Of a stretch of 64,000 nt of DNA, positions 53,063 through 62,606 are shown in pieces; positions within the stretch are counted from its first letter, which is position 1, and the number at the start of each line of letters is the position of its first letter. The stretch covers positions 1 through 64,000 of the forward strand of contig CAUJGS010000040.1 in the NCBI GenBank assembly GCA_963170185.1, read 5' to 3'. The DNA comes from Bdellovibrionota bacterium (lineage in GTDB: Bacteria > Bdellovibrionota > Bdellovibrionia > Bdellovibrionales > JAMPXM01). The position numbers were made by a program, and so were the translations under genes. The notes under the pieces are model-generated. The model saw only the letters and a list, made by a program, of their open reading frames with translations, ran no database searches and was not told the DNA's origin.

Positions 53063-54061
53063 CTAAATATCCGCCGGGAAATACCCGTCCGCGGAAGGGC
53101 GTTTTTCGATAACCTTCATCGAGCGCAGCTGCTCCTCGAGCTCTTGCCAGCGGGCCGCTGTCATTTTCCCGAGATCCGCCTTGTCGGCCTTTGCCGGTTC
53201 GATCAGAAGTCTTTGCGCAATCGCCATCTCCTTCATCGTCGCAAGATCGATGGAAGGATTTAGCTCATTCATTTTGGCATTGGTAAGGTCCAGAGCTTTT
53301 GGGTCGTCCAAATACAGACGCCAGCCCTGGCGAACGGTTTCCAACACGCTCTTCACCAAAGCGGGCTTCTCTTTTAAAAGCGCCCGCCGCGTGACTAAAA
53401 CCGTCGTGTAAGGGTTGAACCCGCTATCAGCCACCAAGAACGTCTTCACCTTCGCACCCTGTTTTGCCGCAAGCAAAGGCTCGGAGGTGATGAAGCATTG
53501 CTGAGAGTGGTCTTTGCGTCCCAAAAAGTTAGACACTCCACCCAAGTAAGGAACAATGGAAGCTCTCATCCCCGCCGAATAGCGAGTTTGCAGATAACGC
53601 GCATAAGGCAGTCCCTTTTGCATCGCAATCGTGCCCGGGCTCTTAAAAACATCCGCCAGCGACTCAAAACCGCGATCCGAATGAGTCATCACACCCTGGG
53701 GATTCGTTTGATACGTCGCAAACAAGGCGACGAGATCAATTCCACGCACACGAGAGACCACGATCTCATCGCCGCTGGCGAGGCCGAAATCGAACTGCCC
53801 TGAAGCGATCATCTGCACAACTGGCGTGCCCGCCCCGCCGGGTGCGATCTCAAGCTCGATACCATGTCCCTTGTCGATCTCCATGAGCGACGCCGTATAA
53901 AATCCGCCAAACTGCGGTTCCGGTTTCCAGTTGAGCGCCAGCTTCACTTTTTCCGGTGCCTTCGTCTTCGCCTGTGCGAAACATCCCATTGAGACCGCGA
54001 GAATCGACGCGATAGTCAGAGATGATAAAAACGAACGACGCAAAACAGAACACGAAATCAT
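53063..54061 (-). CDS. ABC importer substrate-binding protein, ThiY/NMT1-like
   Basis: The start at ATG 54061 overlaps the permease stop as ATGA and has GAGGG upstream, so 6 track residues are dropped; 332 remain. A signal sequence (FLSSLTIASILAVSMGCFAQA) contains a Cys that is not a perfect lipobox. The family N-terminus VKLALNWKPEPQFGGFYTAS and IASGQFDFGLASGDEIVVSR are typical of NMT1/THI5-like binding proteins for thiamine pyrimidine (HMP) precursors. FITSEPLLAAKQG and GFNPYTTVLVTRRALL follow. Riboflavin, nitrate or sulfonate analogues remain possible substrates. Confidence 0.85.
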   Translation of the reverse strand: MISCSVLRRSFLSSLTIASILAVSMGCFAQAKTKAPEKVKLALNWKPEPQFGGFYTASLMEIDKGHGIELEIAPGGAGTPVVQMIASGQFDFGLASGDEIVVSRVRGIDLVALFATYQTNPQGVMTHSDRGFESLADVFKSPGTIAMQKGLPYARYLQTRYSAGMRASIVPYLGGVSNFLGRKDHSQQCFITSEPLLAAKQGAKVKTFLVADSGFNPYTTVLVTRRALLKEKPALVKSVLETVRQGWRLYLDDPKALDLTNAKMNELNPSIDLATMKEMAIAQRLLIEPAKADKADLGKMTAARWQELEEQLRSMKVIEKRPSADGYFPADI

Positions 54062-54801
54062 TTCGGAACCCTCATCCATGAACGCAAGAAGAGCTTAGAC
54101 ACTAGATCAATCAATCCCACGAGAGCCAATCCTAAAAAGGATGACAGAAGCACCGCTGCAAAGACTTTATCGAGCCTCTGCTGCGTTCTCGCGGCATCTA
54201 CAACCTCGCCCAGACCTCCACCGGCAACAAATTCGCCAACGACCGCACCGATCACAGCCAAACCAGCCGCGATTTTTAGCCCCGTAAAAATCGACGGCAT
54301 CGCCGTCGGTAGACGTAGTTTCCACAATGTTTGAAACCGAGAGGCTTTGTGCAATCGAAAGAGATCCAAAAGCATCGGGTCTGGCGCCAAGAGGCCGGCG
54401 ATCGAATTGGCGATCATTGGAAAAACTGAAACGATAAACGCACTTGCCATCACCGTCGGTCGACCAAATCCGAACCAAATCACCAACACCGGCGCCAGCG
54501 CAATAATCGGCACCGTCTGAAAGAAAACCGCGTAAGGCAAAAACGCATGACGAAGTCTCTCCGAGAGAGAAAGCACGACGGCCGCGAAAAGACCAAGCGT
54601 TAAACTCAAAAGAAGTCCAAGCACCGCCGCGATCGTTGTCGACTCAAGACCACCCAAAAGTTCTTTGTGATCGCGAACCAGCGAAACCAACACATCGGAA
54701 GTCGCCGGTAAGAGATAAGACGGCACAATCTCCGTTCTCACCAAAACTTCGACAACGAGACCCAGCGCTAGAAATGGAATCCAGGGTAAAAGGAAATTCA
54801 A
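54058..54801 (-). CDS. ABC importer permease, ThiX/SsuC-like
   Basis: 247 residues with about six helices. The EAA-type cytoplasmic loop is visible as LFRLHKASRFQTLWKLRLPTAMPSIFTG. KIAAGLAVIGAVVGEFV and LLSSFLGLALVGLIDLVSKL follow. It belongs to the BPD_transp_1 superfamily of SsuC/TauC/ThiX permeases and forms the membrane channel of the importer. It overlaps the ATPase gene by 4 bases and the binding-protein gene by 4 bases, so the three are translationally coupled. Confidence 0.88.
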   Translation of the reverse strand: MNFLLPWIPFLALGLVVEVLVRTEIVPSYLLPATSDVLVSLVRDHKELLGGLESTTIAAVLGLLLSLTLGLFAAVVLSLSERLRHAFLPYAVFFQTVPIIALAPVLVIWFGFGRPTVMASAFIVSVFPMIANSIAGLLAPDPMLLDLFRLHKASRFQTLWKLRLPTAMPSIFTGLKIAAGLAVIGAVVGEFVAGGGLGEVVDAARTQQRLDKVFAAVLLSSFLGLALVGLIDLVSKLFLRSWMRVPK

Positions 54802-55547
54802 TTCATCTCCTCGTCCGAACGGAACAAACCTTGAAGCTCTTGTACTTCGCTTGCGTGCTCCTTTGCGAACTCGAGAGAAAATCTCTGCTTAAAGCTTCGC
54901 TCGCCAACAAGCTTCGTTGTACGGTCTGCGATGACATTTGCGGGTCGTTTCGAAAACACGATCTGGCGCTGCCCAAGATACGCCGCTTCCGACATCGAGT
55001 GAGTAACAAAGACCACCGTCATCTGAAACCCGCGCCAGTAGCTAAGAAGATCATCTTGCAGATGAAATCTTGTCACTTCATCAAGCGCCGCAAAGGGCTC
55101 ATCCAGCAAAAGCAAATCCGGCTTCGTCACCAAGGCCCGAGCCAAGCTTGCGCGCATCTTCATGCCGCCAGAAAGCTCATGCGGCACTTTGTCGAGCGAC
55201 TCGCCCAAGCCCACAGAAACCAACGCCAACCGCGCTCGCTCTCGCAATTCTGAACCGCTTAAACCACCTTCTAGCTCGAGAGGCAGCATGACATTTTCAA
55301 GCGTCGTCCGCCACGGCAGCAGCTGTGGTTCCTGAAAAACATAAGAAACCCGAGCATCCGATGTTCGTACGCTACCTGTGTCGGGGGTCTCAAGACCCGC
55401 GATCATTCGCAAGAGGGTGGACTTGCCGCAGCCACTTGGTCCCAGCAAACACAGAAATTGCCCCTTGGGAATTCTCAAGTCCAACGACCGGACAACAACC
55501 CCGGTCTTGGGAAACGACTTCTGCGCGCGCTCGATCTCTACGAGCAC
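54798..55547 (-). CDS. ABC importer ATPase, ThiZ/SsuB-like
   Basis: 249 residues. Walker A LLGPSGCGKSTLLRMIAG, Q-loop in YVFQEPQLLPWRT, signature ELSGGMKMRASLARALV, Walker B LLLLDEPFAALDE and the switch His in VTHSMSEA are all intact. It powers the adjacent permease. Its start overlaps the glutathione-peroxidase stop by 10 bases, linking the importer to that gene in one transcript. Confidence 0.92.
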   Translation of the reverse strand: MLVEIERAQKSFPKTGVVVRSLDLRIPKGQFLCLLGPSGCGKSTLLRMIAGLETPDTGSVRTSDARVSYVFQEPQLLPWRTTLENVMLPLELEGGLSGSELRERARLALVSVGLGESLDKVPHELSGGMKMRASLARALVTKPDLLLLDEPFAALDEVTRFHLQDDLLSYWRGFQMTVVFVTHSMSEAAYLGQRQIVFSKRPANVIADRTTKLVGERSFKQRFSLEFAKEHASEVQELQGLFRSDEEMN

Positions 55548-56188
55548 GTCGCCGAATCCTTGCCCTTTTCGGGGGTCTTTTCTTGTAGGCGCGATTCAAT
55601 CAACTTCGTCACTTCGGCCGCCGACGGCTTCACCCGTGACTTAAACCGTCCCACCAGTTGTCCGTTGCGATCGATGACGAACTTTTCGAAATTCCAAGAA
55701 ACCGATCCCGTCATCTTCGGATTGGCATCCGTCGTAAGATAACGAAACACCGGCTGAATCGCGTCGCCCTTCACCGGGCCCTTTTCGAAAAGCGGGAACT
55801 TGGTGTTGAAGTTCGTTTCGCAAAAATCCTTGATGTCCTTGTTGCTGCCCGGCTCTTGCCCCAGGAAATCGTTCGACGGAAAGGCTAGAACCATGAACCC
55901 CTTGTCTTGATATTTCGCGTAAATGTCCTGCAGGTCTTTGTACTGCGAGGTGAAACCACAGCGAGACGCCGTGTTGACCACCATCAAAACCTTGCCCTTG
56001 TAATCCGCCAGTTTTACCGGAGAACCATCGATGCTCTTCACTTCGAAGTCGTAAAGTGACTTCTGTTTTTCCGTGCTCGCACCTTTGATCAGATCAGCAC
56101 CACAGGTCGCATCGCCAGCGGCTTGCGCTGTCGCGCTAAACAATGTTGCGGAAAGCATTAGAACCGAAATCTTTAAAAGACTCATCAT
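55538..56188 (-). CDS. Secreted glutathione-peroxidase-family enzyme
   Basis: 216 residues with a signal peptide (MMSLLKISVLMLSATLFSAT). The GPx motifs are VVNTASRCGFTSQY with Cys77 as the peroxidatic residue, VLAFPSNDFLGQEPGSN with the conserved Gln, and VSWNFEKFVIDRNGQLVGR with the Trp and Asn. Cysteine replaces selenocysteine, as in bacterial BtuE-type and thioredoxin-dependent forms. It should reduce peroxides in the periplasm. It lies 46 bases downstream of the giant lipoprotein gene and overlaps the importer ATPase gene. Confidence 0.9.
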   Translation of the reverse strand: MMSLLKISVLMLSATLFSATAQAAGDATCGADLIKGASTEKQKSLYDFEVKSIDGSPVKLADYKGKVLMVVNTASRCGFTSQYKDLQDIYAKYQDKGFMVLAFPSNDFLGQEPGSNKDIKDFCETNFNTKFPLFEKGPVKGDAIQPVFRYLTTDANPKMTGSVSWNFEKFVIDRNGQLVGRFKSRVKPSAAEVTKLIESRLQEKTPEKGKDSATCS

Positions 56189-56234: not shown

Positions 56235-59042
56235 TTAAGGAAGTCTCTCGGCAGCATCGCGCAGGGCGCCGATCCACGGTTTAGAAAGTTTCGACCACTG
56301 GACCTGACGCTGGCTGGGCAGATGCGGTTTTAACGTTTCTCCAGCAACCAGCATCGCCACCAAGGCCTCCAGATTAGGAGCCTTCGTCGAACCCGGCTGG
56401 TCCGCATAGAATGCCAATTCCGGCTTAAAGAAGTTCACATTGGTCGCAGAGAAGATGTCTTGCGCCTCATGGCGATAAATCGCAGCCGAAATTGCTTCCG
56501 ATGCATCCAACAGAGCCCGGATCACCAAAGCTTGTTCGATCAAACGTGGTTCTCCGCGTGGCCCAACAGCGACGCCGCCCTGTGTGCGCACGTAGGTAGG
56601 TCGAACCAGACCATCAAGGCCACGCGCCTCTTTGGAAAGGAAGTTGGCGATTGCCATCACCAATAGTTTGATATCTTGGCGACCACCGGTGAATTGATCC
56701 AACGGCGAGACGCCGTCGGCATCACGCTCCAACAAGACACTTGATCTCGTGTTTTCGATATCGTCGACCGCCTTCAAAAACACCGTCAAAGCCGATAGGA
56801 ATCTCGCGACATCCGCGATTTTTGCTTCCGTCGCTCGCTCGCCGTTGACGATATCAAATACGACGGCCATCGTTTCTTGCTCCGCTGGCGCCACGGCCGA
56901 GGGCGTAGGAACTCGAGGCGCTTCACCGGAAATCGCTCCCGACAGCTCGACCTGGGGCGAAAGCGACTCGTTGGCCCAGCGAATGCGTTTCTGCGGACTG
57001 ATTAGGCCGATACTAGAAGACTTCTTCGTCGCGTTCTGCAAAATAATCGCGGCATTGCCGATCGCCGCGGCGAAGAAGAGATCTTTCGGGAAAAGCTTTT
57101 GGTCGACTGCCTCGCGCGGGAGATCGGGAACGAAGTCGGCCAGTACGATGGAACCAAGCGTCTCGTCAAACTTGGTCGACTTCCAGTCCTTCAGCTGAAT
57201 AGCAAGCCGACTTAAACCTCGGATCATGTCCGCCTGCCCACCGACACTGACCGAGAGCTTCGTCGGAATCGTCGACGTCATCACGGCATCTGCGCGCGAG
57301 GTTTTACCAAGCTGAACGCTGTCGGGGACGGCAAACGACACCGGAGATCCCGACATCGTGCGAAGATTAAACCGACTGCGCGAAGACATGTCGCGGTCGA
57401 TGGAAACCGACAAGGCGTCAAACGACTTCGAGGCCTCCGTTTTAAATCCACCCACGACGAGAACTTTGTTGATCTGCTCAAACAGCGTTCGAGACAGGCT
57501 TTGATGCAGGCGAATCGGGTTTAAGCCCTGATTGGCGAGATACGGCTCAAGATGATTCTCCAACTGATCAACAGCCAGCGAGAGCCCAGCCCCGATCGCT
57601 CCAGCTCCAGTCACAAACCGCGAATTATTGGAAGTCGGCGTCTCAGCCGACGCCGAGATTCCGCTGTCTTCAAAGTCGATGCTCACGCGCAGACGAGTTG
57701 GTTCAACACCGTAAAAGGTCGCCTTTTCACGAATACCAAGCTTCGCGACCGCCATGCGATCCATGGCAACCCGCAAATAAGCACCGTAGTCTTGTGAAAT
57801 CTTCGTGATATTGCTCTTCTGACGACGAAGTTCACCGACGATCATGTTGCCGACTTCTTCGTGAAGTTTTGGCAAAAACGCCGTCGCCTGACTTTCAAGC
57901 TCACCGCGAATCGACGCCTGCGCCGCCTCGACGAGCTTGTTGCGAAGCTTGCGAACGCCATACTCTTCAAGCTGCGGCAGAATAAAAATCTCGCGCTTTA
58001 AAACGGTCAGGATTCCGCAACCTCGCTTCAGGCAATCAAGGTCTTCCACCGATTGGTCTTTAAAGAAATCGTAAAGCTCTTTGGAAACCGGTTTGAATTC
58101 TTGATCCCGTGTTTCGGGCGAAGCAGCTAGCCAGAAATCGATGAGCACCGAAAGCGCACGTTTGGCGGAGTTGATTCGCTCAGCGTCGCGCGGTAGCCGC
58201 TCGGCAAGATCCAACTGCTTGTTCAAGTCCGGACCAAGATCGATGTCCTCGGCCTTCAGGATTTCACGAATGCGCCGAACGAAGTCGTAAACCTTTGGTT
58301 CGTTGTACGCGAGCGCCGCCTGCGCGCGAATTCTCCCAATCTTGGGTCCAAAGTTGATGCGCAACTCATCGACAATTTGTTTTCGCACTTGTGGGTCGGC
58401 GTTGCTGGTTTCGACATCATGAACAAAGTCGACCAAGAACTTTTCAATACGACCGACGAGATCGACCAACGAAACCTGCGCCGTCGGCCACTGCGTCTGC
58501 GCGTTGCGAGACTTTAACAAATCCATGATGATCGGCTCTTGGGCCGTCAACATGTCGACACCTTCTTGAATCGAGGCTTCGGTATCCGAGCGCGTCTCGC
58601 CGATCGCCGCCGACACATACGGCGAACTCGCGATCGTGTGCGACCACGGAGTCGAAGTTTTCATCACGGCTTCGCGCATCTTTAAAGAAACTCGTGCGAT
58701 CTCAGGAGCGCGAACTTGGCGTGCAAGCCAGCTTAAGTCTTCCGCCGCGCGATACCACGTCGCAGTTTCAACCGCTCCTCGCCATTTGAAGCTGGAAGCC
58801 GAAGGCATCTGGTTAATCGAGATTTCGTCGACCGCGATATCACCGTCAGTTCGCGTCGGACCGAAGTCCATCTTCGCCTGTTTAAACTCGCGCGCCACCG
58901 GTTCGGGCGAACACCCAACCAATCCCACCAACACCAAAAGCACCGCGGTACATGAGATCGGTCGAGCCAAGGGCGAGACCAAGCTTCTGAAGCGCTTGCG
59001 CGAAGAAGCGATACTAAAAGAATAGCTGAAGCCAGAGTTCAT
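56235..59042 (-). CDS. Giant lipoprotein of unknown function
   Basis: The start at ATG 59042 follows AAGGATGG with 6 bases; the longer track ORF lies inside the upstream gene. The product has 935 residues. An Arg-rich n-region (SSRKRFRSLVSPLARP) and core end in lipobox LVGC (Cys44). The mature part is mostly helical to about residue 480, with a Cys pair in LDCLKRGCG. Then comes a region with beta character (RLRVSIDFEDSGISASAE) and a final helical part containing a Pro/Ala linker (APRVPTPSAVAPAEQ). No domain is recognised. The start overlaps the barrel-protein gene by 29 bases, so the two may form one outer-membrane complex. Confidence 0.75.
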   Translation of the reverse strand: MNSGFSYSFSIASSRKRFRSLVSPLARPISCTAVLLVLVGLVGCSPEPVAREFKQAKMDFGPTRTDGDIAVDEISINQMPSASSFKWRGAVETATWYRAAEDLSWLARQVRAPEIARVSLKMREAVMKTSTPWSHTIASSPYVSAAIGETRSDTEASIQEGVDMLTAQEPIIMDLLKSRNAQTQWPTAQVSLVDLVGRIEKFLVDFVHDVETSNADPQVRKQIVDELRINFGPKIGRIRAQAALAYNEPKVYDFVRRIREILKAEDIDLGPDLNKQLDLAERLPRDAERINSAKRALSVLIDFWLAASPETRDQEFKPVSKELYDFFKDQSVEDLDCLKRGCGILTVLKREIFILPQLEEYGVRKLRNKLVEAAQASIRGELESQATAFLPKLHEEVGNMIVGELRRQKSNITKISQDYGAYLRVAMDRMAVAKLGIREKATFYGVEPTRLRVSIDFEDSGISASAETPTSNNSRFVTGAGAIGAGLSLAVDQLENHLEPYLANQGLNPIRLHQSLSRTLFEQINKVLVVGGFKTEASKSFDALSVSIDRDMSSRSRFNLRTMSGSPVSFAVPDSVQLGKTSRADAVMTSTIPTKLSVSVGGQADMIRGLSRLAIQLKDWKSTKFDETLGSIVLADFVPDLPREAVDQKLFPKDLFFAAAIGNAAIILQNATKKSSSIGLISPQKRIRWANESLSPQVELSGAISGEAPRVPTPSAVAPAEQETMAVVFDIVNGERATEAKIADVARFLSALTVFLKAVDDIENTRSSVLLERDADGVSPLDQFTGGRQDIKLLVMAIANFLSKEARGLDGLVRPTYVRTQGGVAVGPRGEPRLIEQALVIRALLDASEAISAAIYRHEAQDIFSATNVNFFKPELAFYADQPGSTKAPNLEALVAMLVAGETLKPHLPSQRQVQWSKLSKPWIGALRDAAERLP

Positions 59043-60267
59043 GCACCGCCATCCTTTCTGTGTTGCGACCGCTGAAGTTATCCGAGAACTCGTAAGCAAT
59101 GATCGACGGGAGCATCGCTTGGCCCGCGAAGAAAGATTCGATCGTCGAATACGAAATACCAAACCGTGCGCGATCCGATGAGCTTTCCAGTTGATTGGAA
59201 ATCAAATCGTACCGCACGGGCGCCGAGCCCGAATAAGAGTCCGCGCCCTTGCGCGTGAACTCCCAGCCGATACCGATGTCGAGTCCGCGACTCACGCTAT
59301 AGGTCACGCTACCACCGCCGAAGATCGCGTCGCCGGGACGACGATTGACTGTCATCTTGGTCTCTGGTCCCGGAAGCGTGTCGTCTTCGCGAGTTGGAAT
59401 ACGACGAGAAACTCGGTCCGGCAAGACGTAGCGGTAACCGACTTTCGCCGCCAGTTGCCACTTTCTTAGAGGGATATAATTTCCCAGCAGCTGATTCTCA
59501 ATCGCCGTATATCCAAACGCACCGAGATCCGCCAAATCATCCGGGTCGTCGCCCTCTCCCGTCGGAACCGAGAGCAAGGTTTTAAGCTGGGTCGAAAACT
59601 TCTCTTCCTTGTTCATCTGCACGAGGCTCACGATCTGAAGGTCGCCAAGCAAAGTCTCGTCGCGATCCACCAAGGGCTTATACCCCTTCTTCACAAGCGT
59701 CTCTTGCGCCACTATCGCGAGGTTCACGTTGAGCTGATCAAATGCCTCGTTCAGATCGGCGGACGCGTTTCCAACTTGAGCACGAACCGCGGCAAGGTTG
59801 GAACCGTGTTGCGACAGGTTCAAACGGTTTCGGTAGTTCACGATCGGAAGACCAAAACCCACCGTCCACTGCCGAGTGATTCCGCGCGCGTAAACCGGAG
59901 CCAAGTAACGAACCTCCGGAGTTGTATCGACCTTGAGAACTCCCAGCGAAAGCTGATCGCCAAGTCGTTGACTGCCGAATTGATTCAACACCGCCACCAG
60001 CTCGTTCACTCGCGGCTCAAATTGACGAAGCGTCGAAATATCGAACTCAACCGAGTTGATATCTCCAAGAGTCATGAGATCGCCGTTGGAGAGAAACTTC
60101 ATCCCAATGCCCGACACAACTCCCATACGCACCGATGGTGAGTTGATCGCCTCAGGAAGCACTTCGGTCGAGTCGATTGCCCGAGCTATTGAACTCGATA
60201 AGAGCGCGCAGCCAAAGACCGCCAGCGCAAACCGATTCGATGTGTTTTTAAACAATTCGAAGATCAT
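59014..60267 (-). CDS. Outer-membrane beta-barrel protein, paired with giant lipoprotein
   Basis: 417 residues with a signal peptide (FALAVFGCALLSSSIARA). The body alternates strands and turns: ITRQWTVGFGLPIVNYRNRL, WQLAAKVGYRYVLPDRVSRR, AIFGGGSVTYSVSRGLDIGI and ARFGISYSTIESFF. It ends MAVHELWLQLFF with an aromatic last residue, the barrel-insertion signal. A periplasmic helical stretch (VRAQVGNASADLNEAFDQLN) lies between early strands. The predicted barrel is similar to FadL/transport-type or uncharacterised proteins; its substrate is unknown. It overlaps and probably cooperates with the giant lipoprotein encoded next. Confidence 0.72.
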   Translation of the reverse strand: MIFELFKNTSNRFALAVFGCALLSSSIARAIDSTEVLPEAINSPSVRMGVVSGIGMKFLSNGDLMTLGDINSVEFDISTLRQFEPRVNELVAVLNQFGSQRLGDQLSLGVLKVDTTPEVRYLAPVYARGITRQWTVGFGLPIVNYRNRLNLSQHGSNLAAVRAQVGNASADLNEAFDQLNVNLAIVAQETLVKKGYKPLVDRDETLLGDLQIVSLVQMNKEEKFSTQLKTLLSVPTGEGDDPDDLADLGAFGYTAIENQLLGNYIPLRKWQLAAKVGYRYVLPDRVSRRIPTREDDTLPGPETKMTVNRRPGDAIFGGGSVTYSVSRGLDIGIGWEFTRKGADSYSGSAPVRYDLISNQLESSSDRARFGISYSTIESFFAGQAMLPSIIAYEFSDNFSGRNTERMAVHELWLQLFF

Positions 60268-60536: not shown

Positions 60537-61742
60537 ATGTCGCTCTCATGTTCCTACAGTCATCTATGCTCTGGCTGCGACTTGCTGTCTCTCTCGCGCA
60601 CCCAAGTCGAAGCAAGGCGCAGTAAAGCGCTCGCCGATCTCGGGCTTGCGCCTTCTCATATCAAAACTGTTTGGATCGGCGATGGCGGCCTCCGCAATCA
60701 TCTCGAGTTTACCTACGAACCGGGACACGAACAGAACCCAGCTCGCCTGGGGCTCCAAACCTCAGCCCGCCTGGGGCTCTACGAAAAATCCGGGCTCGTG
60801 CGATGGCGTAAAACATTGGACCTCGCCGGCTGTCCGCAACTGACGCCGGAACTTGAAGCTTGGCTGCAGGTGTTTCGTCGCGACCTTCCTCCTTTGACAA
60901 AAAAGGCCGGCATTCGCCTACGCGTCTCGCCCGAAGGACGCCGCGGGGTCTGGATCGACACGGCCAATGAGGAAATTCGAGATCTCTTGAACGAGGAAAA
61001 CTGGCTCGTGCGCCAACTCGCGCAAGGCACCGTCGTCGAAATTGGCCAGCGAAGAAAACGCGTCGTCGATGAAAAGTCCGAGGCTTCTACCGGCACACGA
61101 CGTCTTCGCCTGGCGGACCCGGTGCTTGAGCCTTGGTTCCAAACTTTGGACGGTCAGAAAATCTACGGCACCGTCGCAAGCTTCACGCAACCCGGCTGGA
61201 AAGCCGCTGCTGCTTTGACAAAAACCGTCCTACAAAAACTTCCTGACGTGGCGAGCACCGTTCTTGAGTTCGGCGCCGGAAGCGGCGGCTTCACGCTGCC
61301 CCTTCTCAAACGAAAGCATCGTGTTTTCGCTTTCGAATTCGACCGCTTGGCCGTGGCCGCTTTAAAAACGGGGCTCGAACAGCTCCCCCCCGAAGAGCGC
61401 GATCGACTGCAGGTGTTTGAAGGAGACTTCATCCAGTCCGATCGAGCCTGGAAAGCGGCACGTGAAAATCTCGGTCTTGCACCGACAGAATTTTCGGCGG
61501 CGACAGTCCTCGTGGATCCGCCGCGCAGTGGACTCGGAAAATTTCTTGAAACTCTGCTTGGGGACGAGGCGAATCTTCCCAAACACTGGATCTATGTCTC
61601 TTGTTATCCAGAGAGCTTTGCGCGCGATCTTAAGCGCCTAACCGAGCGCGGTTTTCTGCTCGAGGACCTCACTGTCGTCGAGCAGTTTCCCTATACGAAT
61701 CATTTCGAACTCGTCGCCTCAATTATTAAGAAACCAAACTGA
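60537..61742 (+). CDS. TrmA/RlmD-family RNA (uracil-5) methyltransferase
   Basis: The track start is TTG 60441, but ATG 60537 begins directly before the Fe-S cysteines and yields 401 residues; no strong ribosome-binding site decides. CSYSHLCSGCDLL holds the cluster cysteines. SAM fold: TVLEFGAGSGGFTLPLL. VLVDPPRSGLG is motif IV, WIYVSCYPESFARDL carries the catalytic Cys, and VEQFPYTNHFELVA is the C-terminal signature. Target base and RNA (tRNA U54 or 23S rRNA) cannot be told. No TRAM domain is visible. The 173-base upstream region contains an AAATCCC/GGGATTT dyad at 60382-60407. Confidence 0.85.
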   Translation: MSLSCSYSHLCSGCDLLSLSRTQVEARRSKALADLGLAPSHIKTVWIGDGGLRNHLEFTYEPGHEQNPARLGLQTSARLGLYEKSGLVRWRKTLDLAGCPQLTPELEAWLQVFRRDLPPLTKKAGIRLRVSPEGRRGVWIDTANEEIRDLLNEENWLVRQLAQGTVVEIGQRRKRVVDEKSEASTGTRRLRLADPVLEPWFQTLDGQKIYGTVASFTQPGWKAAAALTKTVLQKLPDVASTVLEFGAGSGGFTLPLLKRKHRVFAFEFDRLAVAALKTGLEQLPPEERDRLQVFEGDFIQSDRAWKAARENLGLAPTEFSAATVLVDPPRSGLGKFLETLLGDEANLPKHWIYVSCYPESFARDLKRLTERGFLLEDLTVVEQFPYTNHFELVASIIKKPN

Positions 61743-62606
61743 GAGCCCTTCGCACACGCGGCGCAGATGGTTTTCAACATTCTCCAAACGCTTGAGCACC
61801 GGAGCCGACACGCCAGCCACGCGCGGATCGCGGCTTAGCCGTGGCGAAGCCGCATCCGGGCAATACTCGCCAGGAACAAAGAGGCGCTCCAGGCGTTGTT
61901 CGGTTTCAATTTCCGCGAAAACTTTCGCTAGGGCGCGCTCGGAAAGACGCCCGTTTGCAAACTGCACGACCGCGATGTCCGCCGCCGAATCAAACGCAAA
62001 CGTTTCACCCGCGTTAACGGCCTGACCACTGACACGACGAATGAAGACCTGCGTGTTCATCTTGCGAAGGTCGGCGACATTTTTCTTTGCAAACATATAA
62101 GCGGCGTGGTCGTGTTCGGTGTCGTCGCCGATCATCAAAATGTCCGCCTCGTCCAAAGACTGTTGATCAAGAAGCTTTGCGATCTCGTCCGATTTAAAAT
62201 CGTAGGTTTCTTTACCGATCGGGCGCGTAGCCAAAAAACCTGGATCCGGAAAACGAAACTCCGACAGAAAATTCCAGACCGAAAAACCGAGAATAAATGG
62301 TGTTCCCGAAACCACGGCAAACCCATGATCACGACCTTGTTGATTCGCTTGATCGAGTAGCGAATGATAAAGCGTCGACATTCCAGCAAACGCGACGGGG
62401 TCTTGGAAAAAGCGAATGACTTTTCCGATCGGGTCTAAGATGTGCGAAACCTTGATGGTGTCATCGACATCCGTCACGATCACAAACGCCGACTTTGTCG
62501 ACGGCGCCTGAGGCTCCGACAAAGCCAAGGCATTTGGCGTGGCGCAGCCCAAGCCAACAACCAAATGCAGCTGCACAACGAATAGAATGCGAAGCGAGTA
62601 TTTCAT
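61719..62606 (-). CDS. App1-like (DUF2183) phosphatase, secreted
   Basis: 295 residues. An N-terminal hydrophobic segment with Cys21 (LHLVVGLGC) is a signal peptide, possibly lipoprotein though the lipobox is imperfect. The catalytic core has VTDVDDTIKVSHI (Asp46, Asp48) as HAD-like motif I, VVSGTPFILGFSVWNFLSEF as motif II, and MIGDDTEHDHAAYMFAKKN as motif IV. The family includes yeast App1 phosphatidate phosphatase. Membrane-lipid or other phosphate ester hydrolysis in the periplasm is inferred. Its 3' end overlaps the convergent methyltransferase gene by 24 bases. Confidence 0.82.
   Translation of the reverse strand: MKYSLRILFVVQLHLVVGLGCATPNALALSEPQAPSTKSAFVIVTDVDDTIKVSHILDPIGKVIRFFQDPVAFAGMSTLYHSLLDQANQQGRDHGFAVVSGTPFILGFSVWNFLSEFRFPDPGFLATRPIGKETYDFKSDEIAKLLDQQSLDEADILMIGDDTEHDHAAYMFAKKNVADLRKMNTQVFIRRVSGQAVNAGETFAFDSAADIAVVQFANGRLSERALAKVFAEIETEQRLERLFVPGEYCPDAASPRLSRDPRVAGVSAPVLKRLENVENHLRRVCEGLSVWFLNN

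Follow-up and report, generated by a model that had tools for sequence, protein, structure and literature searches.

A linked outer-membrane barrel and large lipoprotein in the Bdellovibrionales: a possible two-part transporter for hydrophobic molecules

The gene pair and its setting

The window analysed here, the first 64,000 nucleotides of contig CAUJGS010000040.1 (assembly GCA_963170185.1, a Bdellovibrionota bacterium), carries two overlapping minus-strand genes, one for an outer-membrane beta-barrel protein and one for a large outer-membrane lipoprotein (Table 1). The pair had been singled out in a preliminary description of the same DNA as a two-part outer-membrane machine. The present analysis points, with a probability that we place at roughly 45%, to a transport module of two parts that handles hydrophobic molecules.

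The barrel open reading frame (ORF) starts with ATG and ends with TAG, and its product has a signal-peptide-like N-terminus and a C-terminal phenylalanine. The lipoprotein ORF likewise starts with ATG and encodes a lipobox. Both ORFs lie where they had been placed, and the 29-base overlap reported for them stands. Both protein sequences are conserved throughout the order, which shows that the open frames are not due to chance. An overlap of the same length is also called in two relatives, while in genome G003 the called overlap of 80 nt shrinks to 29 nt if the start is moved 17 codons downstream to an internal ATG. Other genomes mostly show an overlap of 1–4 nt or a gap of about 5–20 nt. This is the spacing of translationally coupled genes, and the pair is probably coupled in this way. 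The lipoprotein orthologue of genome G019 (L079:9592-12671) is broken into two ORFs, of 253 and 781 residues, that overlap, possibly reflecting a frameshift or a sequencing error.

Table 1. Features of the barrel-lipoprotein locus (positions in the window)
Feature	Position	Strand	Basis or remarks
Outer-membrane beta-barrel gene, 417 residues	59014..60267	minus	COG4313/PF13557-like; predicted 12 strands
Outer-membrane lipoprotein gene, 935 residues	56235..59042	minus	ORF; orthologues in 48/141 genomes of the order
Overlap of barrel and lipoprotein genes, 29 bases	59014..59042	minus	Same length in G004 and G012
Barrel P235-T236-G237, PTG motif of COG4313 channels	59557..59565	minus	Invariant in 27/27 orthologues
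Lipobox L41-V-G-C44	58911..58922	minus	Cys invariant in 26 aligned orthologues
Long-helix region, about residues 141-435	57738..58622	minus	AlphaFold2 secondary structure
Predicted C-terminal (alpha/alpha) toroid, about residues 480-932	56247..57605	minus	AlphaFold2 helical hairpins; Foldseek; profile match at residues 793-918
Glutathione peroxidase	55538..56188	minus	PF00255, E = 1.9e-38; next in same-strand run; same place in 5 family genomes
ABC transporter ATPase, putative onward partner	54798..55547	minus	PF00005; 6/6 testable family genomes
ABC transporter permease, putative onward partner	54058..54801	minus	PF00528; linked in 6/6 testable family genomes
NMT1/THI5-like substrate-binding protein, putative onward partner	53063..54079	minus	PF09084, E = 2.8e-25; 6/6 testable

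Linkage and co-inheritance

Profiles of both proteins were searched against 141 genomes of the order Bdellovibrionales, and loci were counted by hand transcription from the resulting tables. This gave 49 lipoprotein loci in 48 genomes and 47 loci of barrel orthologues; weak matches to the lipoprotein C-terminus only, a class of hit that elsewhere proved to consist of DUF255-type toroids, were left out of the count. Every barrel orthologue (47/47) lies immediately upstream of a lipoprotein gene on the same strand, so that homologues of the two genes are by no means generally unlinked. In genome G061 an additional gene for a lipoprotein of 320 residues stands between the two. An apparent gap of 605 nt in genome G022 is an effect of the alignment, the ORFs there overlapping by 4 nt. 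Only two lipoprotein loci are without a barrel: a fragment at a contig edge (G001) and a second copy (L087:8359-10938, contig G090:C5) in a genome that has another barrel. The pairwise distances of the two proteins are strongly correlated (Mantel r = 0.94, 25 pairs).

A chance overlap of unrelated genes is ruled out by this linkage. A viral origin was also rejected, as a scan of viral contigs for the barrel was negative and PHROGs gave no match. Many genomes of the order, among them complete ones from the genus of B. bacteriovorus, lack the pair, which is therefore not essential in the order. A scan of named genomes with the barrel alignment as query matched B. bacteriovorus kdesi (NZ_CP102930.1).

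The barrel

Remote homology searches and structure prediction were run for both proteins. The barrel matches Pfam family PF13557 above its curated cutoff (E = 1.4e-5; 25.8 bits against 22), and 12 strands can be read from the predicted secondary structure of its AlphaFold2 model (predicted local distance difference test score, pLDDT, 84.9). Foldseek matches this model best to 4rl8, the structure of Pput2725, a COG4313 channel (E = 3.4e-13). These results bear out the initial identification of an outer-membrane barrel and place it near the COG4313/PF13557 channels, which include Pput2725, SphA and TcpY. One account of these channels describes them as 12-stranded, with an N-terminal segment in the lumen, and argues that the family takes up hydrophobic molecules through a lateral opening (PMC4493636). 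A conserved cluster at the proposed side gate of Pput2725 includes Asp92 and Pro119-Thr120-Gly121 (PMC4493636). The window barrel shares such an aspartate and Pro-Thr-Gly motif, of which Asp209 is, like the motif itself, invariant among the 27 orthologues; the two elements are 26 residues apart in the barrel and 27 in Pput2725, a correspondence made by position and not by residue alignment to 4rl8.

The mature barrel, of about 390 residues, is larger than the described COG4313 members (270–320 residues), and two long helical loops account for the extra size. Because its length falls outside the range of the family, it is classed here as a COG4313 relative or variant and not as a typical member. 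The obligate lipoprotein partner is a further feature of its own, not mentioned for COG4313 channels in the available part of the published account (PMC4493636). Membership of the FadL family was rejected: the barrel has 12 strands to the 14 of FadL, and FadL structures score lower (template-modelling score of about 0.33).

The lipoprotein

The lipoprotein matches no Pfam, NCBIfam or PHROGs family and has no close sequence relative in the PDB; PDB profile matches to Lon, apolipoprotein and helix bundles were set aside as helix matches driven by composition. Its AlphaFold2 model (pLDDT 83.3) has a hairpin at residues 87-128 ahead of the long-helix region, and its C-terminal half consists of paired helices with short strands. 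Foldseek ranks AGE-type epimerases and (alpha/alpha) glycosidases highest, and a DsbH-domain protein appears lower among its matches. A profile of the C-terminus (residues 793-918) matches the toroid part of DUF255/Thioredox_DsbH proteins from the same phylum, one of which was confirmed as PF03190. When the C-terminus was compared with these DUF255 toroids by hhalign, the probability was 95.5%, against 0.3% for reversed sequences; the E-values of this comparison are pairwise and not database values. A second register also matches, as expected for repeated hairpins.

Prediction and profile together suggest that the C-terminal half is an (alpha/alpha) toroid of the six-hairpin superfamily, the number of hairpins being approximate. 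The lipoprotein had been described as having no recognisable domain, which is true of Pfam, NCBIfam and PHROGs but overlooked this toroid. The barrel, for its part, passes the PF13557 cutoff, and the view that the two proteins lack known domains or motifs was partly wrong. The hairpin repeats resemble those of DUF255/DsbH proteins and other six-hairpin toroids by profile and fold, but the lipoprotein lacks the thioredoxin domain and has instead a lipid anchor and a long helical part. Conserved residues include W304, D619, F651-P652-K653, N800 and Q837, among which, without their being mapped to an active site, no catalytic set was recognised. A predicted fold can thus be provisionally assigned to a large lipoprotein family outside the coverage of Pfam and NCBIfam.

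Neighbouring genes

An ATP-binding cassette (ABC) importer of NMT1 type follows the lipoprotein gene in all six testable genomes of the family to which the window belongs, with the glutathione peroxidase gene between them in five. A glutathione peroxidase gene within a run of ABC-importer genes recalls btuE of the E. coli btuCED operon. In Bdellovibrio, 8 of the 13 testable genomes that carry the pair have, 0.3 to 6 kb upstream of it on the same strand, genes for a small lipoprotein, MlaE, MlaF and MlaD, examined with Pfam. This MCE/Mla adjacency is absent at the locus in the window and in all other families searched.

Two other genes were observed near the pair. Several Bdellovibrio carry, close upstream of the barrel gene, a gene for a trypsin-family protein (PF00089) with a lipoprotein-like N-terminus (L175:15803-16651 in genome G039, and L069, L098, L185, L186 and L189). 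In the window, positions 61719-62606 (minus strand) encode an APP1-type phosphatidate phosphatase domain (PF09949, E = 5.5e-15) with a signal-like N-terminus; an opposite-strand methyltransferase gene lies between it and the pair, and a similar gene occupies the same place in G004.

Proposed function

The invariant linkage, the correlated distances and the probable translational coupling lend good, though inferential, support to the earlier view of the pair as an outer-membrane device of two parts. Among the functions listed for it (secretion, transport and surface display), transport comes out ahead, given the COG4313-like barrel and the ABC transporter genes that stand beside the pair in two separate clades; secretion and display are less likely. 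The barrel would be a 12-stranded COG4313-type channel for hydrophobic or amphipathic molecules. The lipoprotein, with its predicted toroid and long helical part, would dock on or beside it and may bind or gate the ligand or pass it to an inner-membrane ABC transporter. The receiver would be the NMT1-type importer in the family of the window, and possibly an MCE/Mla lipid transporter in many Bdellovibrio. The computations show the sequence features, the folds (by prediction and profile), the obligate linkage with co-inheritance and the adjacent ABC genes; complex formation, the membrane face that the toroid occupies, the direction of transport and the cargo are inferences.

SusC-SusD, MlaA-OmpC and PqiC offer working analogies, in that an outer-membrane lipoprotein is devoted to a channel or transport path. 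These systems gave no sequence or fold match to the pair in the searches run, and the type of barrel differs. For SusC-SusD, there was no Pfam match to a TonB-dependent barrel or to SusD; the window barrel is 12-stranded, and no SusD-like fold was among the top matches.

Several results weigh against a hydrophobe transporter. Only 4 of 27 barrel orthologues match PF13557 at E ≤ 1, which places the family near the edge of that model, and the Foldseek matches of the toroid are modest (best E = 4.8e-4). Neither ABC system is confined to genomes with the pair, and in Bdellovibrio there is no linkage between the NMT1 protein and the pair. Each ABC neighbourhood may reflect a single ancestral event, and so gives a lead on function and not proof. 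In addition, the second-best Foldseek match of the barrel is FapF, a polypeptide exporter, which is also 12-stranded and carries PTG motifs.

This last match raises the prospect of an export or display pair, in which the barrel would carry a polypeptide to the cell surface, either its cognate lipoprotein or some other; FapF does this for amyloid subunits and Slam for surface lipoproteins. Paralogous barrels also tend to have a downstream lipoprotein of their own, often unrelated, as would be expected of a channel with its cognate passenger. We nevertheless consider this unlikely. FapF has an N-terminal periplasmic coiled coil, whereas the barrel has only about 12 residues between its signal peptide and first strand. 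The FapF operon includes amyloid subunit genes; none lies beside the window pair, whose neighbours are the glutathione peroxidase and ABC importer genes. The second lipoprotein copy of G090, without an adjacent barrel although the genome has another, is a further point against export.

A role for the pair in carrying phospholipid between MlaFED and the outer membrane, like that of MlaA-OmpC or PqiC in E. coli, seems similarly doubtful. The upstream Mla genes of Bdellovibrio and the hydrophobe type of the barrel would suit this role. However, MlaD was found in 99/99 relatives searched, those with the pair and those without it alike; five pair-bearing Bdellovibrio lack the adjacency, as does every other family searched, and one ancestral event could explain it where it occurs. 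It is very improbable that the toroid binds or cuts a glycan while the barrel imports the product: the top fold matches are sugar epimerases and (alpha/alpha) glycosidases and the toroid has conserved Trp, Asn, Gln and Asp, but the conserved residues form no recognised catalytic set, by sequence the toroid stands nearest to DUF255/DsbH proteins, whose function is unknown, and hydrophilic solutes are considered unlikely cargo of COG4313 channels (PMC4493636).

The COG4313 hydrophobe channels are described, in that same account, as single proteins with mostly unknown cargo (PMC4493636). With its obligate lipoprotein partner and its presence in B. bacteriovorus, the pair is a tractable two-gene system. 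It offers a way to study the passage of oily molecules or lipids through the outer membrane of predatory bacteria, and to ask if COG4313-type channels need periplasmic partners.

Paralogous barrels and their lipoproteins

Matches to the barrel profile, orthologues included, occur in 141 of 241 genomes of the phylum. From these, a non-random sample of strong paralogous matches was taken, consisting of 20 rows less one truncated orthologue at a contig edge (G086). Of the remaining 19 barrels, 14 are followed within 150 nt by a gene on the same strand in which a lipobox was detected, or 15 if the evident lipobox of L096_9 (GLQFLGC) is counted; the background among other neighbouring genes is 31/632 (5%). 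The partner lipoproteins differ, being either of a type of 590 residues (F2) or of types of 300–500 residues (F3). F2 shows a weak profile match to the window lipoprotein (66%, against 0.3% for the reversed control), which is suggestive of a relationship. The F3 lipoproteins were rejected as its homologues, as no homology extends beyond the signal region.

A broader reading, which we regard as speculative and rather improbable, is that these systems represent an undescribed class of two-part outer-membrane transporter across the Bdellovibrionota. Each COG4313-type barrel would have its own obligate outer-membrane lipoprotein, the type of lipoprotein could be exchanged from one paralogous system to another, and in predatory Bdellovibrio the transporter would serve an MCE lipid route at its outer-membrane end. 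No published description of the pair was found in the open-access literature, the locus tags of the model strain not having been identified.

In systems with an F3 lipoprotein, a gene for a conserved small secreted protein lies upstream of the barrel gene, which suggests a three-gene module of secreted protein, barrel and lipoprotein. No Pfam family scored above cutoff for those proteins of this second module that were tested. The module was observed at L096, L097, L099, L100, L141-L145 and L149, where it comprises a secreted protein of about 260–315 residues, a paralogous barrel and a fast-diverging lipoprotein of 300–500 residues.

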